A stretch of DNA of 64,000 nt from the NCBI GenBank assembly GCA_005116745.1, contig SWDS01000010.1:338432-402431 (forward strand), in the 5' to 3' direction. The translations under genes were made by a program, and so were the position numbers. Below the pieces are notes generated by a model. The model was not told the origin of the DNA, searched no databases, and saw only the letters and a program-made list of their open reading frames with translations. Origin of the DNA: Nitrospira sp. Lineage in GTDB: Bacteria; Nitrospirota; Nitrospiria; Nitrospirales; Nitrospiraceae. Shown piece by piece: positions 23,529 through 28,955 of the stretch. The first letter of the stretch is position 1, and each line of letters opens with the position of its first letter.

Positions 23529-24602
23529 ATGGCAACGCTCATTTCAGTAGCATCCGGAAAAGGCGGCGTCGGCAAGAGTGTGGTGTCCGCTAACCTTGCG
23601 TTGGCGCTGGCGAAGCGCGGACGACAGGTCATCCTGGCCGATCTCGACGTGGGTGGGGCCGATGCCCATATCATGTTCGGAGAATTGAATCCGTCGGTGA
23701 CCTTGACGGATTTTCTGAACAAACGAGTCAACCGGCTGATCGACGTCGCCATTCCCATCACCATGCATCCGAACCTCCGTCTCATTGCCGGGACGGGCGA
23801 CACGTTGGCGACAGCCAACATGGCTTATGTCAGAAAGAAGCGGCTGATGAAACAGTTTCGTGAGCTTGAGTCCGACATTGTGGTGCTCGATATCGGGGCC
23901 GGCACCAACCTCCACGCGCTCGACTTCTTCCTGATGGCGGATCTCCATGTGGCTGTGGCGACTCCCGAGCCGACGTCCGTGCTAGACCTCTACCGATTCA
24001 TTAAGTTAGCCGCGATCCGCCGTGTATTGGCGTGCTTTCTTGCGAGAAGCCCTATGTCGGAGGTGCTCTCCAACCGAGACTTCACGAGTGTGGAGGAGGT
24101 CATGGACATTGCGGGTGCCACTGATACGGCGGGACGTGATGTGGCGGCTGCCGCATTGCAATCGTTTCGGCCTGGACTGATCGTCAACCGGGTGTCTGAC
24201 AGATCGCAGGTCAACGTCCTCTACCTCCGTAAGATTCTCCATCAATACGTTGGCGGTGATCTGACGCTGCTGGGTGAGATCCCCGACGACCCAGCTGTGA
24301 GCCAGGCAGTTCGGAAGTTCCTGCCGGTTATTGAAGCGGCTCCTGAGTCTCCGTCTGCCAAAGGTCTGCTCGCTATCTCGGATGTTGTCGAACAGCTCGT
24401 CGCCACGCGGATCAGAAACCACATAGAACAGACGAAACAAACAGAAGAGAAGCAAATCAGAGTCCTGCTATCCAATCCGACATCTTCAAAAGAACCTTTG
24501 ACCTCTATCGCTGAGCAATCTGATATTCCACCACCTTCACCTGAACCACGACAACCTACCTCCACCACGGTCATCAAAAACTCCAGCGGGCTTGTCGCCT
24601 AA
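23529..24602 (+). CDS. MinD/ParA-family P-loop ATPase, orphan
   Basis: A 357-residue ATPase with a deviant Walker A at residues about 8-17 (ASGKGGVGKS), switch I ADLDVGGADAH and switch II VVLDIGAGTN. The middle, RVLACFLARSP onward, follows the MinD/FlhG/Mrp-like layout seen in single ATPases of Nitrospirota and delta-proteobacteria. A 70-residue tail is rich in Glu, Pro and Ser and ends NSSGLVA. Such proteins position cellular structures or load cofactors; there is no adjacent minC, minE, flagellar or parB gene to indicate which. No obvious membrane-targeting amphipathic helix is seen at the C terminus. A near relic of its tail is found at 27739-27822. Confidence 0.85.
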   Translation: MATLISVASGKGGVGKSVVSANLALALAKRGRQVILADLDVGGADAHIMFGELNPSVTLTDFLNKRVNRLIDVAIPITMHPNLRLIAGTGDTLATANMAYVRKKRLMKQFRELESDIVVLDIGAGTNLHALDFFLMADLHVAVATPEPTSVLDLYRFIKLAAIRRVLACFLARSPMSEVLSNRDFTSVEEVMDIAGATDTAGRDVAAAALQSFRPGLIVNRVSDRSQVNVLYLRKILHQYVGGDLTLLGEIPDDPAVSQAVRKFLPVIEAAPESPSAKGLLAISDVVEQLVATRIRNHIEQTKQTEEKQIRVLLSNPTSSKEPLTSIAEQSDIPPPSPEPRQPTSTTVIKNSSGLVA

Positions 24603-24660
24603 AATGCGGCTGGACCTGTTGCTGCTTGTCACCAGCCAGACTCGTTCAATCAATAGTTGG

Positions 24661-24897
24661 AGTCAGATCTTGAATCGTGCATCGAGATGGCGCGTGGCTG
24701 CCCGGTTGAGGGGTTGACGAGAGCGGAACGTGGGCGGCTCAGTCCCACGCCCTTCTCATGGCATTCGGGGCAGTCGGCGGTCGCATCGCGGATGTGGTGG
24801 GGGGCTCGGGTTTAGCAACGCGCGTGTTCGGTGCGCACCCTAGCGGCGACGAACAGACGAAGCGGGACTGAACGCTATGCAAGAAACAAGATCTGAC
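24661..24897. mobile_element. Candidate degenerate inverted-repeat element
   Basis: GTCAGATCTTG (24662-24672) and CAAGATCTGAC (24887-24897) are a perfect 11-bp inverted pair enclosing about 214 bp. On the minus strand the interior reads a 50-odd codon fragment containing DCPECHEKG and PRSALVNPSTG, with a CxxC pair. It is closed by stops on both sides and looks like the C-terminal scrap of a larger protein. It has no start of its own. The structure suggests a decayed small transposable or REP-like element inserted after the MinD-like gene. The family is unknown. Confidence 0.35.
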
Positions 24898-24958
24898 CTC
24901 AATTCTTTTGTTTGTCGGATGGCGCAGAATAAGTCAATTCTCATGTCAGAACATCCCG

Positions 24959-25096
24959 CTAGAAATTGCAAGAGCATGTTTTAAGCGGGGGCCAGTTGTT
25001 AAATTCCGTGTCGACACTCCCAACTTCTTCAGCATGACTTGCAGAAACGATTATTGTGCAAAACAGTAACATGGTCACAAATAGGTTTGTCTTCAT
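24959..25096 (-). pseudogene. Truncated creA duplicate (5' end only)
   Basis: The first 33 codons (signal peptide [30 protein letters not shown]) are nearly identical to the intact creA at 25865-26332. Homology then stops at base 24999, and unrelated codons lead to a TAG at 24959. The ribosome site AAGGAG is preserved. The mature protein is missing, so this is a remnant from a duplication of the lipoprotein-creA unit. Confidence 0.85.
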
Positions 25097-25148
25097 GTAT
25101 TATTCTCCTTCCATCGGTTAGCGTGAACTCCATGTACGGTATAACTCA
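24999..25148. repeat. 150-bp direct repeat, copy A
   Basis: Aligns without gaps to 26235-26384 with about seven mismatches (about 95% identity). It spans the last nine codons of the lipoprotein gene, the intergenic space and the first codons of creA. The two copies frame the duplicated segment. Confidence 0.9.
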
Positions 25149-25567
25149 CCTCTGATCTCGGTGCGCATGGTGCCATTCAGTTTGGTGATATCCGCGATTC
25201 TGATGTCGGTTTTCGGGTCGGAATAGACGATCTCGCCAATAAAGACGGCGGACACGCCGTATTTCTTCCCGATCTTCGTCATGGTCTCGGCGTCGAAGGT
25301 CGTCCCGCCGACGGCCGCCAGCACAGCGTCTTTGCTCCCGAGTTCAAGAATGGGCGTTCCCGGGTTGGCTCCCTGCACATGTTCTTGAAACTGCTGTGTC
25401 GCGAACGCATTCATCGTGGAGTCGGAGTTCGTCGTGAATTGGATCAGTCCGATGGTGCCATACTGTTTGAGATCCATGCGCGGTGGGACAGGCACCAATA
25501 TCGTGTTAGAGCAGCCCCACAACAGTGTCAGAAGCCATAAGGCCATGAGTTTGCCATACGGTCGCAT
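25118..25567 (-). CDS. Lipoprotein of unknown function
   Basis: A 149-residue lipoprotein. The signal is MRPYGKLMALWLLTLLWGC with lipobox LLWGC, so Cys19 would be lipidated. The mature part begins SNTILVPVPP and includes YGTIGLIQFT, FQEHVQG, ILELGSKDAVLAAVG and KKYGVSAVFIGEIVY. This arrangement is reminiscent of outer-membrane assembly lipoproteins that share a curli-CsgG-like or GNA1162-like fold, but I cannot assign a family. A GGGAGG site precedes the ATG. Its last nine codons (ELYRTWSSR) recur upstream of the full creA at 26356-26384, which shows that the lipoprotein-creA pair was duplicated. Confidence 0.8.
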   Translation of the reverse strand: MRPYGKLMALWLLTLLWGCSNTILVPVPPRMDLKQYGTIGLIQFTTNSDSTMNAFATQQFQEHVQGANPGTPILELGSKDAVLAAVGGTTFDAETMTKIGKKYGVSAVFIGEIVYSDPKTDIRIADITKLNGTMRTEIRGELYRTWSSR

Positions 25568-25687
25568 GAGATGTTCCCTCCCATTTACAACAGACAGCGT
25601 CTCTCAAGTATAGCTGAGTGCTTTTGCAGGCCAATGGCGGGGAAACGAGGTTCGTGGCTGCCTTGAGGCGCGCAACGGAGAAGAAAG

Positions 25688-25831
25688 TGGTGTCAGGAAC
25701 TATTGTTTGAAGTACATTTTGTGCGCGGAGGTTCATGGAGAGGAAGACCGTTGCGTCCCACGTCAGCTGATGGAGTGTGGCACGTGCTCAGTCGTACGAA
25801 CGCGCGTGGTGAACAATGGTTCCTGACACCA
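25688..25831. mobile_element. 144-bp element with 20-bp inverted ends (MITE/REPIN-like)
   Basis: TGGTGTCAGGAAC followed by YATTGTT occurs at 25688-25707 and, inverted, at 25812-25831 with 19 of 20 matches. The element sits alone between the lipoprotein gene and creA and encodes nothing convincing. The GTGTCAGGAAC end resembles terminal palindromes that accompany REP-associated tyrosine transposases in other genomes (from memory, not checked). Confidence 0.5.
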
Positions 25832-25864
25832 TTGTCTTTCTCTGTTAGGCAAGTCTCCTGGCCC

Positions 25865-26332
25865 TTATTGACTTGACCAGGATTGGATCGGCACGGTGGA
25901 GATGGCATTCTGTGGCGAGCCCTCGATCACTCGGTCGCTATAGGCGAGATAAATGTACGTCTGCCGTTTCTTGTCGAAAAAACGGACAACTTGTAAGGTC
26001 TTGAAAATCAGGGAGCGACTCTCACTAAATACCTTTTCCCCGTCTTTCAACTCACCTGTAAGGCGAACAGGACCGACTTGGCGACAGGCTAGTGAAGCAT
26101 CTGAAGTTTCCTCGGCCAATCCGACCATGCCTTTCAAACCACCTTTTTTTGATCGACTCAGATAACATGTGATGCCTTCAATCTTTGGGTCGTCAAACGC
26201 TTCCACCACAATTTTGTGATCTGGCCCCAACCATTTAAATTCCGTGTCGACACTCCCAATTTCTTCAGCATGACTTGCAGAAACGATCATTGTGCAAAAC
26301 AGTAACGTGGTCACAAATAGGTTTGTCTTCAT
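25865..26332 (-). CDS. creA: CreA-family periplasmic protein
   Basis: A 155-residue exported protein with a signal peptide (to about residue 22, SHA|EE). The mature sequence follows E. coli CreA closely: [55 protein letters not shown] and a C-terminal [14 protein letters not shown]. Two cysteines (Cys in ITCYL and LACRQ) are conserved in the family. CreA's role is still unknown; in E. coli it lies beside the CreBC two-component system, which is absent here. ATG 26332 is preceded by AAGGAG. This is the intact one of two copies. Confidence 0.9.
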
Positions 26333-26384
26333 GTAGTATTCTCCTTCCACCGTTTAGCGTGAACTCCATGTACGGTATAACTCA
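26235..26384. repeat. 150-bp direct repeat, copy B
   Basis: Partner of 24999-25148. On the minus strand it begins with the severed codons of the lipoprotein C terminus (ELYRTWSSR and stop, 26356-26384) and continues into the first codons of the intact creA. The sequence to the right of 26384 is unrelated to the lipoprotein, which marks one duplication breakpoint. Confidence 0.9.
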
Positions 26385-26788
26385 GAGAGGCTCGAACGCA
26401 AGGACTGCTGGCTCGGGACGTCCTGGCGAAGTGAGCGAAATACCTGTCGAGTGCCTCCAGGTCACTCCCAAAGAGTCTCTGCTCAGAAGCGCATTGCAGA
26501 GCAGTGTAACCGTGGGTAGCTGTGGCCGTTCTTCGACGGGATTTTTCAACGAACTCAAGACAAGCAGGCAGAGGGAACGGGCTGGAGGGCGTGGCGTTGG
26601 CTGGGGCCCTTCGGCTGGCTTGCTTGAACAAGCTCCGCCGACCCCTTTTCTTGTCCGACTCTCTCGACTCTATTGCTTGCCGCCCTGACGCAATAGCACT
26701 CCACTCGCCCGGATAGAGATCCCGGGATTGCCTCACCTTTTATTATTCAAGTAGGATGCCCATCCCTTACTGATGTGGGAGATATAGC
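26385..26788. other. Unassigned interval between creA and the next gene
   Basis: About 400 bp of GC-rich sequence. A minus-strand frame (MRQSRDLYPGEW..., up to 26736) and its plus-strand shadow are open, but composition is arginine/serine-rich, there is no ribosome site, and no family is recognisable. The frame also runs through the repeat copy in a different phase from the real gene. I treat it as decayed or inserted DNA. The end holds the leader of the gene at 26789. Confidence 0.4.
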
Positions 26789-27559
26789 ATGCGTCAGACG
26801 GTTATCCTTTTGCTGGGTGGATGCGTTCTCTCAGTGCTTCTTATGTCTGCCCCTTCTCACAGGGCTTTGGCAGTAGACGAATGCTGCGCGACGGAGGCGA
26901 CAGCCAAGCCCGCTGCGGTGCTCGTCGACCGTCCTGAATATCTGGCCTGGAAGAACTTCAGACCTGGTGCGAAGGTTGTGTACGCCGCTCGGTACTGGAA
27001 TCTGGCCGGCTCGAACAACTTCCTGGCCGGTCCAATCACTTCTCTCAATGCCTATCAGTTGCGGGTCATCAACGCTGAGGGCGTCAGGCTGTGGTTCAGC
27101 CAAGCTCCCACTGATCGGTATGGGAGGCCCATGCCTCCGAATGAATGGGAAGAGACCATCGCCGCTCAGTATGATTCCAATGTCGGCCCATCGGTGAATC
27201 AATCCCGTTATGCCCAACTGCTGACTGTCTTCCAGCAAGCCGGCAATCTTGCGATGGGTGTTCAACCAAAGCCCCGACCGATTGAAACCGGTGAAGATAC
27301 GATCGAGCTCAACGGCGCGCGGATTGCGACGCAGTGGGAGTCTGCGACGTATGAGTATGACGCGTCGGTGTGGCCGACCTTCAAAAATTGCCGCCTGGTC
27401 ATCAAGCTCTGGACCAGCACCGCCGTTCCGACGGGGTTGGTTCGCAAGACCGAAGAGAGAACCTGCCCGCTGGGAGGAGATCAGTTGGCGCGAGTCATGG
27501 TTGAAACGTATCTCCAGTCATTCGAGGGGTTTACGCCGACGACGAGCACGTTGCGCTGA
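26789..27559 (+). CDS. Secreted protein of unknown function
   Basis: A 256-residue exported protein. The signal peptide spans about residues 1-28 (VILLLGGCVLSVLLMSA ... ALAVD). The mature domain has a CC pair, YLAWKNFRPGAKVVYAARYW, RLWFSQAPTDRYGRP, TIELNGARIATQWESATY, and LVIKLWTSTAVPTGLVRK. The last section reads like an outer-membrane lipoprotein or periplasmic beta-sandwich that tests a resistance to change in conductivity or charge, but no family is recognised. It has a GGGAGA-like site and stands alone at the edge of the scar region. Confidence 0.75.
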   Translation: MRQTVILLLGGCVLSVLLMSAPSHRALAVDECCATEATAKPAAVLVDRPEYLAWKNFRPGAKVVYAARYWNLAGSNNFLAGPITSLNAYQLRVINAEGVRLWFSQAPTDRYGRPMPPNEWEETIAAQYDSNVGPSVNQSRYAQLLTVFQQAGNLAMGVQPKPRPIETGEDTIELNGARIATQWESATYEYDASVWPTFKNCRLVIKLWTSTAVPTGLVRKTEERTCPLGGDQLARVMVETYLQSFEGFTPTTSTLR

Positions 27560-27738
27560 TGCTTCGCCTGGCAGGCCAGTAAGGGATAGCAAGCGATTCA
27601 GAAGTGTGAAACAGCCTTTCGGTGAGTGACCGGCTAGTCCTTTGGACTGCGCGCGTTCTTGTATTACCTTCCTAAGTAATGGGGACAGTTGACCCCAATT
27701 CTGACCCTCAAGATCCTCAGGCCCCTAGCCCTCTACAA
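27560..27738. other. Spacer with no gene
   Basis: No coding frame. It contains GGGGACAGTTGACCCC (27681-27696), a short imperfect palindrome of the kind found near small repetitive elements. It joins the preceding gene to the relic that starts at 27739. Confidence 0.4.
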
Positions 27739-27822
27739 TCAAACCTTCCGCCTCCTTCAATCGAACCGAGACAGTCTACCTGCACCAAGACCATAGAAAA
27801 CACCAGCGGGCTCGTTGCCTAG
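27739..27822 (+). pseudogene. Relic of MinD-like gene 3' end
   Basis: The frame 27739-27822 matches the last 27 codons of the MinD-like gene at 23529-24602 with 18 identities: PPPSxEPRQ, then a threonine-rich stretch, and the shared end SGLVA followed by a stop. No upstream part of the ATPase is present. It is a relic of a second copy or of a rearranged end, about 3.2 kb from the intact gene. Confidence 0.75.
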
Positions 27823-27977
27823 TGCAGTGAGGGTATGACCAGAGGTAAGCCCTTGAGGTTGTCTCTATTTGAATAGGTGGGGTAGCGGGAAATAGCGAAG
27901 AGTGGAACCACATAGGTGGAATCGGTTAAGGATGAGGCTGTCTAGAGCCAGAGAGCAAAATGAGGATCGAGTACGTG
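27823..27977. other. Short spacer after the relic
   Basis: No gene or distinctive structure is seen. The convergent gene of the next unit ends at 27978. Confidence 0.5.
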
Positions 27978-28955
27978 TCAGAATCCGAGCTCTTTTTCGA
28001 GGTCGGCTTTCTTCTTATCAAATTGCTTTTGGTCGGCTTCGCTCTTCTGGGTGAACGATTTTTTCAAGCTTTCCCCAGCCTTTTCCACGACTTGCTGAGA
28101 CTCCTCACTCTTTTTCTTGATTTGCGCAGCCAAACCCTTCGCCTTCGGCGAACCGGAAAACTCGTAATAGATCATGGCTTGACCCTGGGAGAAGGTTGGA
28201 TCCGGCCGCTTCATGATGGTATCGCCTCGCTGTTCAGCTCGATCTCTGGCTGGTTTGTCTCCGCCCGGCAGGAATTTCATCCACAGTGACGCGTTCCTGA
28301 GTTTCTCGATCGACTGCATGGTCGACTGACCCAACTCGCCGATATTGCCGGTGAGACCCTGGGCATTTTTCTCCTCTGATTTCATCAGTCGATCGGCATT
28401 GACCGATGCCACCTTGGTCAGTTCTTGCCGGAATGCCGGTGGAGAGTTGTACGGCTGTCTTGATCCGGTAGTGCCATCGACCGGGCCGTAGCGGCCATTA
28501 TCGATATTCCAGGCGGCCTCGAACAGGTGCAGGTCTTCAGGCTTGGCTTGAATGGCCTTGATCAGGACCCGGTTGGCGTCCTGGTGGTCGCCGATGGCCT
28601 CGTAGTACTGAAAGGCTGCTGTTTGCCCGTCGGCCCGTACCGGTTCGCCGGAATACAAAGCGCCTTTTGCTTCAGCTGCCTTGGCCAAATCCCTCCCCAG
28701 TTTGGGCAGGTTTGCCTTGGCCTTTCCCGCTGCGTTCTTGTCATAGCGGTCGATGCACTCGCTTGCTGCCACTCTCATGTACGCGACGAAGAGCGCGGCG
28801 GATTGTCCGGCTTGTTCGGCCTTCTGCAACGCAGCCGACAGGGCCAGGGCAGCTTTCTTTTCATCGTCGCCCAGGCAAGGATCATCCGCATGAACGGCGG
28901 GAACTGCGAGGGTCATGAGCATGAGCGAATATCCGACTACTTTCGACAGGCGCAT
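27978..28955 (-). CDS. Secreted coiled-coil protein of unknown function
   Basis: A 325-residue exported protein with a signal peptide (KVVGYSLMLMTLAVPAVHA, cut before DD). The mature N-terminal half contains CLGDDEKKAALALSAAL, an ECIDRYDK motif and FQYYEAIGDHQDANRVLIKAIQ, which resembles a TPR-like helical hairpin. The last 60 residues are strongly charged (KKKSEESQQVVEKAGESL and QKQFDKKKADLEKEL) and likely form a coiled coil. It lies 15 bp downstream of the DUF4412 gene (28971-29714) on the same strand, so the two probably form an operon. Confidence 0.75.
   Translation of the reverse strand: MRLSKVVGYSLMLMTLAVPAVHADDPCLGDDEKKAALALSAALQKAEQAGQSAALFVAYMRVAASECIDRYDKNAAGKAKANLPKLGRDLAKAAEAKGALYSGEPVRADGQTAAFQYYEAIGDHQDANRVLIKAIQAKPEDLHLFEAAWNIDNGRYGPVDGTTGSRQPYNSPPAFRQELTKVASVNADRLMKSEEKNAQGLTGNIGELGQSTMQSIEKLRNASLWMKFLPGGDKPARDRAEQRGDTIMKRPDPTFSQGQAMIYYEFSGSPKAKGLAAQIKKKSEESQQVVEKAGESLKKSFTQKSEADQKQFDKKKADLEKELGF

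Follow-up and report, generated by a model that had tools for sequence, protein, structure and literature searches.

Laterally exchanged gene ends have been described in Rhs genes, which acquire new C-termini from elsewhere while the old tips stay downstream as dissociated fragments (Jackson et al. 2009, PMC2935791). In Vibrio cholerae T6SS clusters, older genes are retained after having been displaced, and something close to homology-facilitated illegitimate recombination has been suggested as the cause (Kirchberger et al. 2017, PMC5361080). We report here on a MinD-like gene of Nitrospira sp. and the DNA behind it, located in a stretch of 64,000 nucleotides that was analysed as a whole (the window; features in Table 1). 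As in the Rhs displacement described in PMC2935791, a conserved core is found with an apparently laterally gained C-terminus and the old one downstream; however, the window gene codes for a MinD/ParA-type P-loop ATPase by Pfam (CbiA PF01656, E 5e-19) and not for a member of the Rhs family, there is a single displaced tail rather than an array, and the displaced fragment lacks any core repeat, its homology being limited to the tail and starting at 27707-27709. The window case thus appears, by analogy, to work like C-terminal displacement without being an Rhs locus. The protein scores under the NCBIfam cut-offs for MinD. The likeness to the V. cholerae T6SS clusters, as presented in PMC5361080, lies in a proposed homology anchor with an illegitimate far end and in the old gene part shifted downstream, but whole immunity genes are kept there, whereas the window keeps only the end of a gene, with no body. 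Homology-facilitated illegitimate recombination likewise has one homologous end and one that is not (PMC3240628); it was shown experimentally in that work, whereas in the window it is read from the anatomy: the homologous junction is a breakpoint inside the MinD coding sequence (24374/24375), and the other, putatively non-homologous join has the end of a repeat and 18 nt between. The type of rearrangement is known, but the gene that most likely underwent it is unexpected; beyond Rhs loci and those of T6SS effectors, C-terminal displacement now extends to a MinD-like ATPase of an environmental nitrifier genus. No title naming this locus was among the matches listed for homology-facilitated illegitimate recombination, for the Nitrospira REP-associated tyrosine transposase, or for Nitrospira horizontal gene transfer, homologous recombination and comparative genomics.

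Table 1. Features of the MinD-u325 locus, in window coordinates.
Feature	Position	Strand	Basis or remark
MinD-like P-loop ATPase gene	23529-24602	+	357 aa
Native part of the MinD-like gene, codons 1-282	23529-24374	+	95% nt to G067; body tree
Very probably foreign in-frame 3' tail of the MinD-like gene, codons 283-357 and stop	24375-24602	+	maximum chi-square; tail tree
MITE-like repeat with 31-nt imperfect terminal inverted repeats (I1)	24652-24907		inverted-repeat search
Direct repeat, copy 1, 150 nt (truncated creA start and end of lipoprotein-like gene)	24999-25148		96% to 26235-26384
Small gene, 149 aa, lipoprotein-like by eye	25118-25567	-	ORF
Second inverted-repeat element, 27-nt arms (I2)	25681-25838		inverted-repeat search
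Extra intact creA, xenologue	25865-26350	-	PF05981, E 6e-57
Direct repeat, copy 2 (creA/lipoprotein)	26235-26384		96% to 24999-25148
Travelling cassette holding the 256-aa gene	26662-27688		near-identical borders in three relatives
256-aa gene of the cassette	26789-27559	+	ORF
Collapsed repeat: left end GGGGACAG and a stretch resembling by eye the right end	27681-27706		join of cassette and displaced tail
Displaced, very probably native-type MinD tail, about 37 codons and stop, without gene body (relic)	27707-27822	+	identity and tail tree
Likely ancestral spacer from MinD tail to next gene	27823-27977		matches before u325 in relatives
u325, usual downstream neighbour of MinD	27978-28955	-	neighbour order; 98% nt to G067

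The initial annotation had noted that the final 27 codons of the 357-aa MinD-like gene recur, with 18 of 27 residues identical, in a frame that ends at 27822 in the same SGLVA-stop and lacks the gene body. This is borne out, and at the DNA level the match reaches beyond these codons, as an ungapped alignment of 112 nt (24490-24601 against 27710-27821; 80 identical, 71.4%; blastn E 4.9e-11 within the window) with a longest identical run of 10 nt, which a repeat finder also recovered as family D2. The similarity persists under statistical alignment, since the E value is accompanied by a local score of 64, the highest among 500 dinucleotide shuffles being 34, and a chance resemblance of the two tails is thereby ruled out. 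No further equally strong stretch was found in the window by blastn with the last 300 nt of the gene and the sequence behind it. An end of the SGLVA type is normal for many MinD orthologues of Nitrospira.

We compared the window gene with the MinD genes of 32 related Nitrospira genomes. Over nt 1-780 of the coding sequence, G067 is the closest of the 32 relatives (95.3%) and G034 the least similar (75.9%), whereas past nt 840 the identity with G067 drops to 62.8% and the best matches are G034 (74.3%) and then G072 (71.0%). The maximum chi-square test, in which G067 and G034 represented the parents, placed the breakpoint between nt 846 and 847, with 180 native-like versus 12 foreign-like sites to its left and 27 versus 54 to its right; the statistic is 113, whereas none of 2000 permutations exceeded 24. 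Applied to other genomes, the test gave 7 for G088, 8 for G102 and, at another place in the gene, 35 for G061, so that a weaker breakpoint signal is not unique to the window gene. MinD tails generally evolve faster than bodies. In the 32 genome pairs whose bodies are at least 88% alike, the tail identities are 59-66% in the five pairs that involve the window's genome and higher in every one of the other 27 (83-97% in 12, 68-74% in 15). In the body tree (33 rows) the window gene is sister to G067 (support 98/93), while the tail tree, made of 21 of the 32 relatives plus the window tail and the relic, with 11 too divergent tails omitted, places its tail with G034 and G072 (100/100); forcing this tail into the G067/G088/G102 group was rejected (p-AU 0.00025). 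The core and the C-terminus of the gene thus differ in evolutionary origin and, judged from these alignments and trees, the gene is a chimera of a G067-like body and a tail from distant relatives. It is scarcely credible that an assembly artefact fused two strains here: the reading frame is intact across the left join, the window gene and G034 are only about 70-75% identical just before it, so that a long identical stretch at which a misjoin might arise is lacking, the region is internal to a contig of 809 kb in an assembly with 99.96% completeness, and a cassette next to MinD recurs in G067.

The relic shows the opposite kinship. In the tail tree it groups with G067, G088 and G102 (support 98/95), and a single clade of the relic and the window gene's own tail was rejected (p-AU 0.0017), the relic covering just 50% of the tail alignment. 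Its best stretches are 91% identical to G067 (67 nt), 89% to G102 (75 nt) and 88% to G088 (84 nt); over all 114 nt, the identical positions number 90 with G088, 88 with G102 and 85 with G067, compared with 85 for G012 and G061, 84 for G001, and 69 for both G034 and G072. Since the relic clusters with the tails of the G067 group and the window gene's tail with G034 and G072, the scrap is very probably native in type and the end of the intact gene foreign, to judge from sequence kinship. The initial annotation was therefore right in seeing a MinD tail in the scrap, but not in taking it for a relic of the intact gene's present tail, and its polarity would, in all likelihood, have to be reversed. 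Its reading supposed a local duplication of the gene or its tail, followed by loss of the body and drift of the relic. The two tails do lie 3.2 kb apart in the same orientation and are 71% alike, yet a tandem duplication of MinD is rejected by the tail tree (p 0.0017, under its model), the odd one among the relatives is the intact gene and not the relic, and the expected related genome with two full MinD copies in tandem was not among the matches listed; we consider a duplication very improbable. The scrap sits directly before u325, the usual downstream neighbour, and therefore gives the impression of an original that has kept its place. Of two such gene ends, it can be the short "relic" that is original and the intact one that is new, and history is misread where scraps of this kind are annotated as decayed duplicates.

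The end of the relic has affinities of its own. In its final 30 nt, 25 positions match G001 and 24 match G010, compared with only 15-17 for G067, G088 and G102, and of the first 12 nt behind its stop codon 10 agree with G001 and G010 and 4-5 with the other three. We read this as the relic having retained the older end and spacer, the end of its sisters having been altered when a repeat inserted itself after their stop codon; alternatively, there was a second recombination. At present the relic is only debris. As a candidate for a selected small gene it was dismissed, its 38 codons differing from G088 by 3 synonymous and 14 nonsynonymous changes (3/16 for G067, 6/12 for G102) with no sign of protein constraint, although live MinD tails are likewise weakly constrained.

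Pyruvate kinase (pyk) adjoins MinD in 17 of the 19 MinD-bearing loci fetched, and u325 follows MinD in full or nearly so in 11 of them, behind a spacer of roughly 20-790 bp; one of the others has a u325 fragment and seven show no u325 in the stretch fetched. In the window this spacer amounts to 3.4 kb (24603-27977), and 24606-27704 gave no blastn match (E up to 0.01) in 20 fetched loci (the 19 with MinD plus G031). Behind the relic, about 27900-27968 resembles the stretch preceding u325 in G019 and G029, and weakly in G064, while 27835-27890 is without detected relatives. The view of the initial annotation that 24603-27822 is a reshuffled segment is upheld, and the MinD-u325 interval is marked as an entry point for accessory DNA. 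Also, u325 alleles have been exchanged, as the window copy is 98% identical in nucleotides to G067, 94% to G068 and 79% to G088 and G102, unlike pyk, which is about 95% identical in all four.

Between the two tails lie about 3.1 kb of mosaic DNA. The duplicated creA unit that had been annotated there is a real repeat, probably what is left of a lipoprotein-creA unit after tandem duplication; its spacing is unlike that of the creA-lipoprotein neighbours in G068, G088 and G102. The creA of the insert is 92% identical in amino acids to that of G016 and G028, and the genome's other creA (contig C7) 88%. The lipoprotein-like gene has no Pfam or NCBIfam family and occurs in 8 of 79 Nitrospira genomes, its own included. 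The inner frame of the second inverted-repeat element resembles, by eye only, the start of a REP-type transposase but has no Pfam match, and no second copy of the element was found in its own genome. No Pfam integrase or transposase was detected in the lipoprotein-like, creA and 256-aa genes or in 22 other insert frames of at least 40 aa.

In an icd/e14-type integrative element, a new tail is followed by an insert and the displaced old tail. Such an element, targeting the MinD 3' end and bringing its own tail, with the old one as the far attachment site, would give a layout equal to that of the window. We rejected this candidate as most improbable: no Pfam integrase was found in the insert frames scanned, no identical core is present at both ends (80 of 112 positions identical, in runs of 10 nt at most), and the left breakpoint lies about 115 nt ahead of the homologous tail segment, at the edge of the conserved coding sequence.

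The right-hand part of the insert is a cassette that is 95.8-98.4% identical to its counterparts in G067, G088 and G102, with left ends at 26662-26664 and right ends at 27688 (G067, G102) or 27658 (G088). Its 256-aa gene belongs to no known family (Pfam, NCBIfam) and was found in 11 of 79 Nitrospira genomes, its own included. In G067 the cassette lies between MinD and u325 on a single contig, and it is probably also beside MinD in G088 and G102, where the contigs break in between and the ends fit. At third codon positions the cassette is 96% identical to G088 and 95% to G102, above the MinD body (83 and 78%, respectively), pyk (88% for both) and u325 (55 and 56%); with G017 the values are 88% for the cassette and 55% for the MinD body. 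The cassette therefore moves from one species to another. Against G067 there is no such excess (90% over 136 aligned codons, compared with 89% for the MinD body and 96% for u325). The 256-aa gene of G067 (L134:7878-8593) has an internal deletion of about 310 nt.

The join of the cassette to the relic coincides with the end of a repeat. The window matches G067 up to 27688 (GGGGACAG), where G067 enters a full repeat of about 250 nt; in the window there follow 18 nt that resemble by eye the right end of the repeat, and then the displaced tail. A copy of this repeat is also present in the window at 24652-24907, and homologous repeats adjoin MinD and the cassette in G067, G088 and G102. The MITE-like repeat that follows the intact gene is present as a whole in one copy in its own genome, which elsewhere holds only a 29-nt match, and among the relatives G067 has two near copies, while G088 and G102 have pieces. 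With up to 2 mismatches allowed, 34 occurrences of the end motif of this repeat were counted in its own genome, versus 2 for the reversed control, and the end sequence is also found as GGGGTCAGATCTTG at L251 1579-1592 (contig C9), just upstream of a Y1_Tnp frame. Dispersed short motifs, one of them just upstream of a Y1 gene, are features shared with the REP sequences and their Y1 (TnpA_REP/RAYT) transposases as described in PMC6006769; the window element differs in its length of about 250 nt, its inverted ends and its lack of a transposase, and its mobility is putative. We infer that the repeat took part in the right-hand join rather than merely lying there.

The explanation that we consider best, and reasonably probable, is that the original 3' end of the MinD gene was left downstream after foreign DNA entered the gene. 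The relic would then be the original 3' end of the MinD-like gene of this lineage. Foreign Nitrospira DNA would have entered on the left by a homologous crossover in the conserved ATPase part (near window position 24374), bringing a G034/G072-like tail in frame together with the DNA behind it, and its right-hand side would have been joined without homology where the MITE-like repeat ends (27688-27707), cutting the native tail at about codon 321. About 114 nt of the native tail would have been lost, and its last 37 codons would remain beside the old neighbour u325. The observed anatomy, namely the chimeric gene, the native kinship of the relic, the neighbour order and the repeat end at the join, is consistent with a single entry event having made both ends, to which we give slightly less than an even chance. 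One event suffices if the donor had a G034-like tail, the creA pair and the cassette in a row; this complete arrangement was not seen among the loci compared, and several steps are therefore possible.

The main rival is such a stepwise history. In G067 the cassette follows an intact native tail and the repeat replaces the spacer; if this layout is ancestral, the relic and the spacer of the window were re-acquired. The cassette would have been inherited as in G067, DNA of a cassette-free relative would have restored a native-type tail and spacer at u325, and a further exchange would have brought in the creA pair and a different tail for the gene. The relic would then be native in type but not the same copy. 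The order cassette-repeat-u325 without a spacer in all of G067, G088 and G102, the exchanged u325 alleles (98% vs 79%) in this group, the G001/G010-like last 30 nt of the relic and following 12 nt, and the creA repeat, which indicates another rearrangement, all argue for it. It requires about three events instead of one, however, and the cassette spreads laterally (see its identity with G088 and G102), so that its presence in the sisters is not necessarily ancestral; we regard this history as possible but rather unlikely. Under both the stepwise history and the displacement of the original end, the scrap would be native in type and the gene's tail foreign.

A second case of conflict between body and tail is found in G004 (L048), where the MinD body is closest to G078 (87%, tails 43%) and the tail closest to G064 (75%, bodies 80%), which by its similarities appears to be another, independent chimeric MinD; weaker conflicts were seen in G020 and G072. 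We nevertheless think it unlikely that the end of the MinD-like gene is a recurrent site of tail exchange in Nitrospira. If it were, accessory cassettes would anchor in the conserved ATPase body and swap the poorly conserved C-terminus, REP-type repeats would supply the other join, and a housekeeping ATPase would undergo C-terminal displacement in the style of Rhs.

Lone tails were also seen in other genomes. No MinD orthologue was found in G031 and G085 (best matches 63%), and both have a lone MinD tail of about 62 nt beside pyruvate kinase (L059:3932-3993 and L261:1501-1562, respectively), which is 86% identical to the G012 tail over 64 nt; the two loci are 90% alike, and MinD was therefore probably lost once. 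A further candidate in G066 was dismissed, because the record has a stretch of N directly next to the MinD tail. Finally, G019, G029, G064 and G004 share an alternative tail ending (VLVRMY...), the look of which suggests that a frameshift carries the reading frame past the usual stop.
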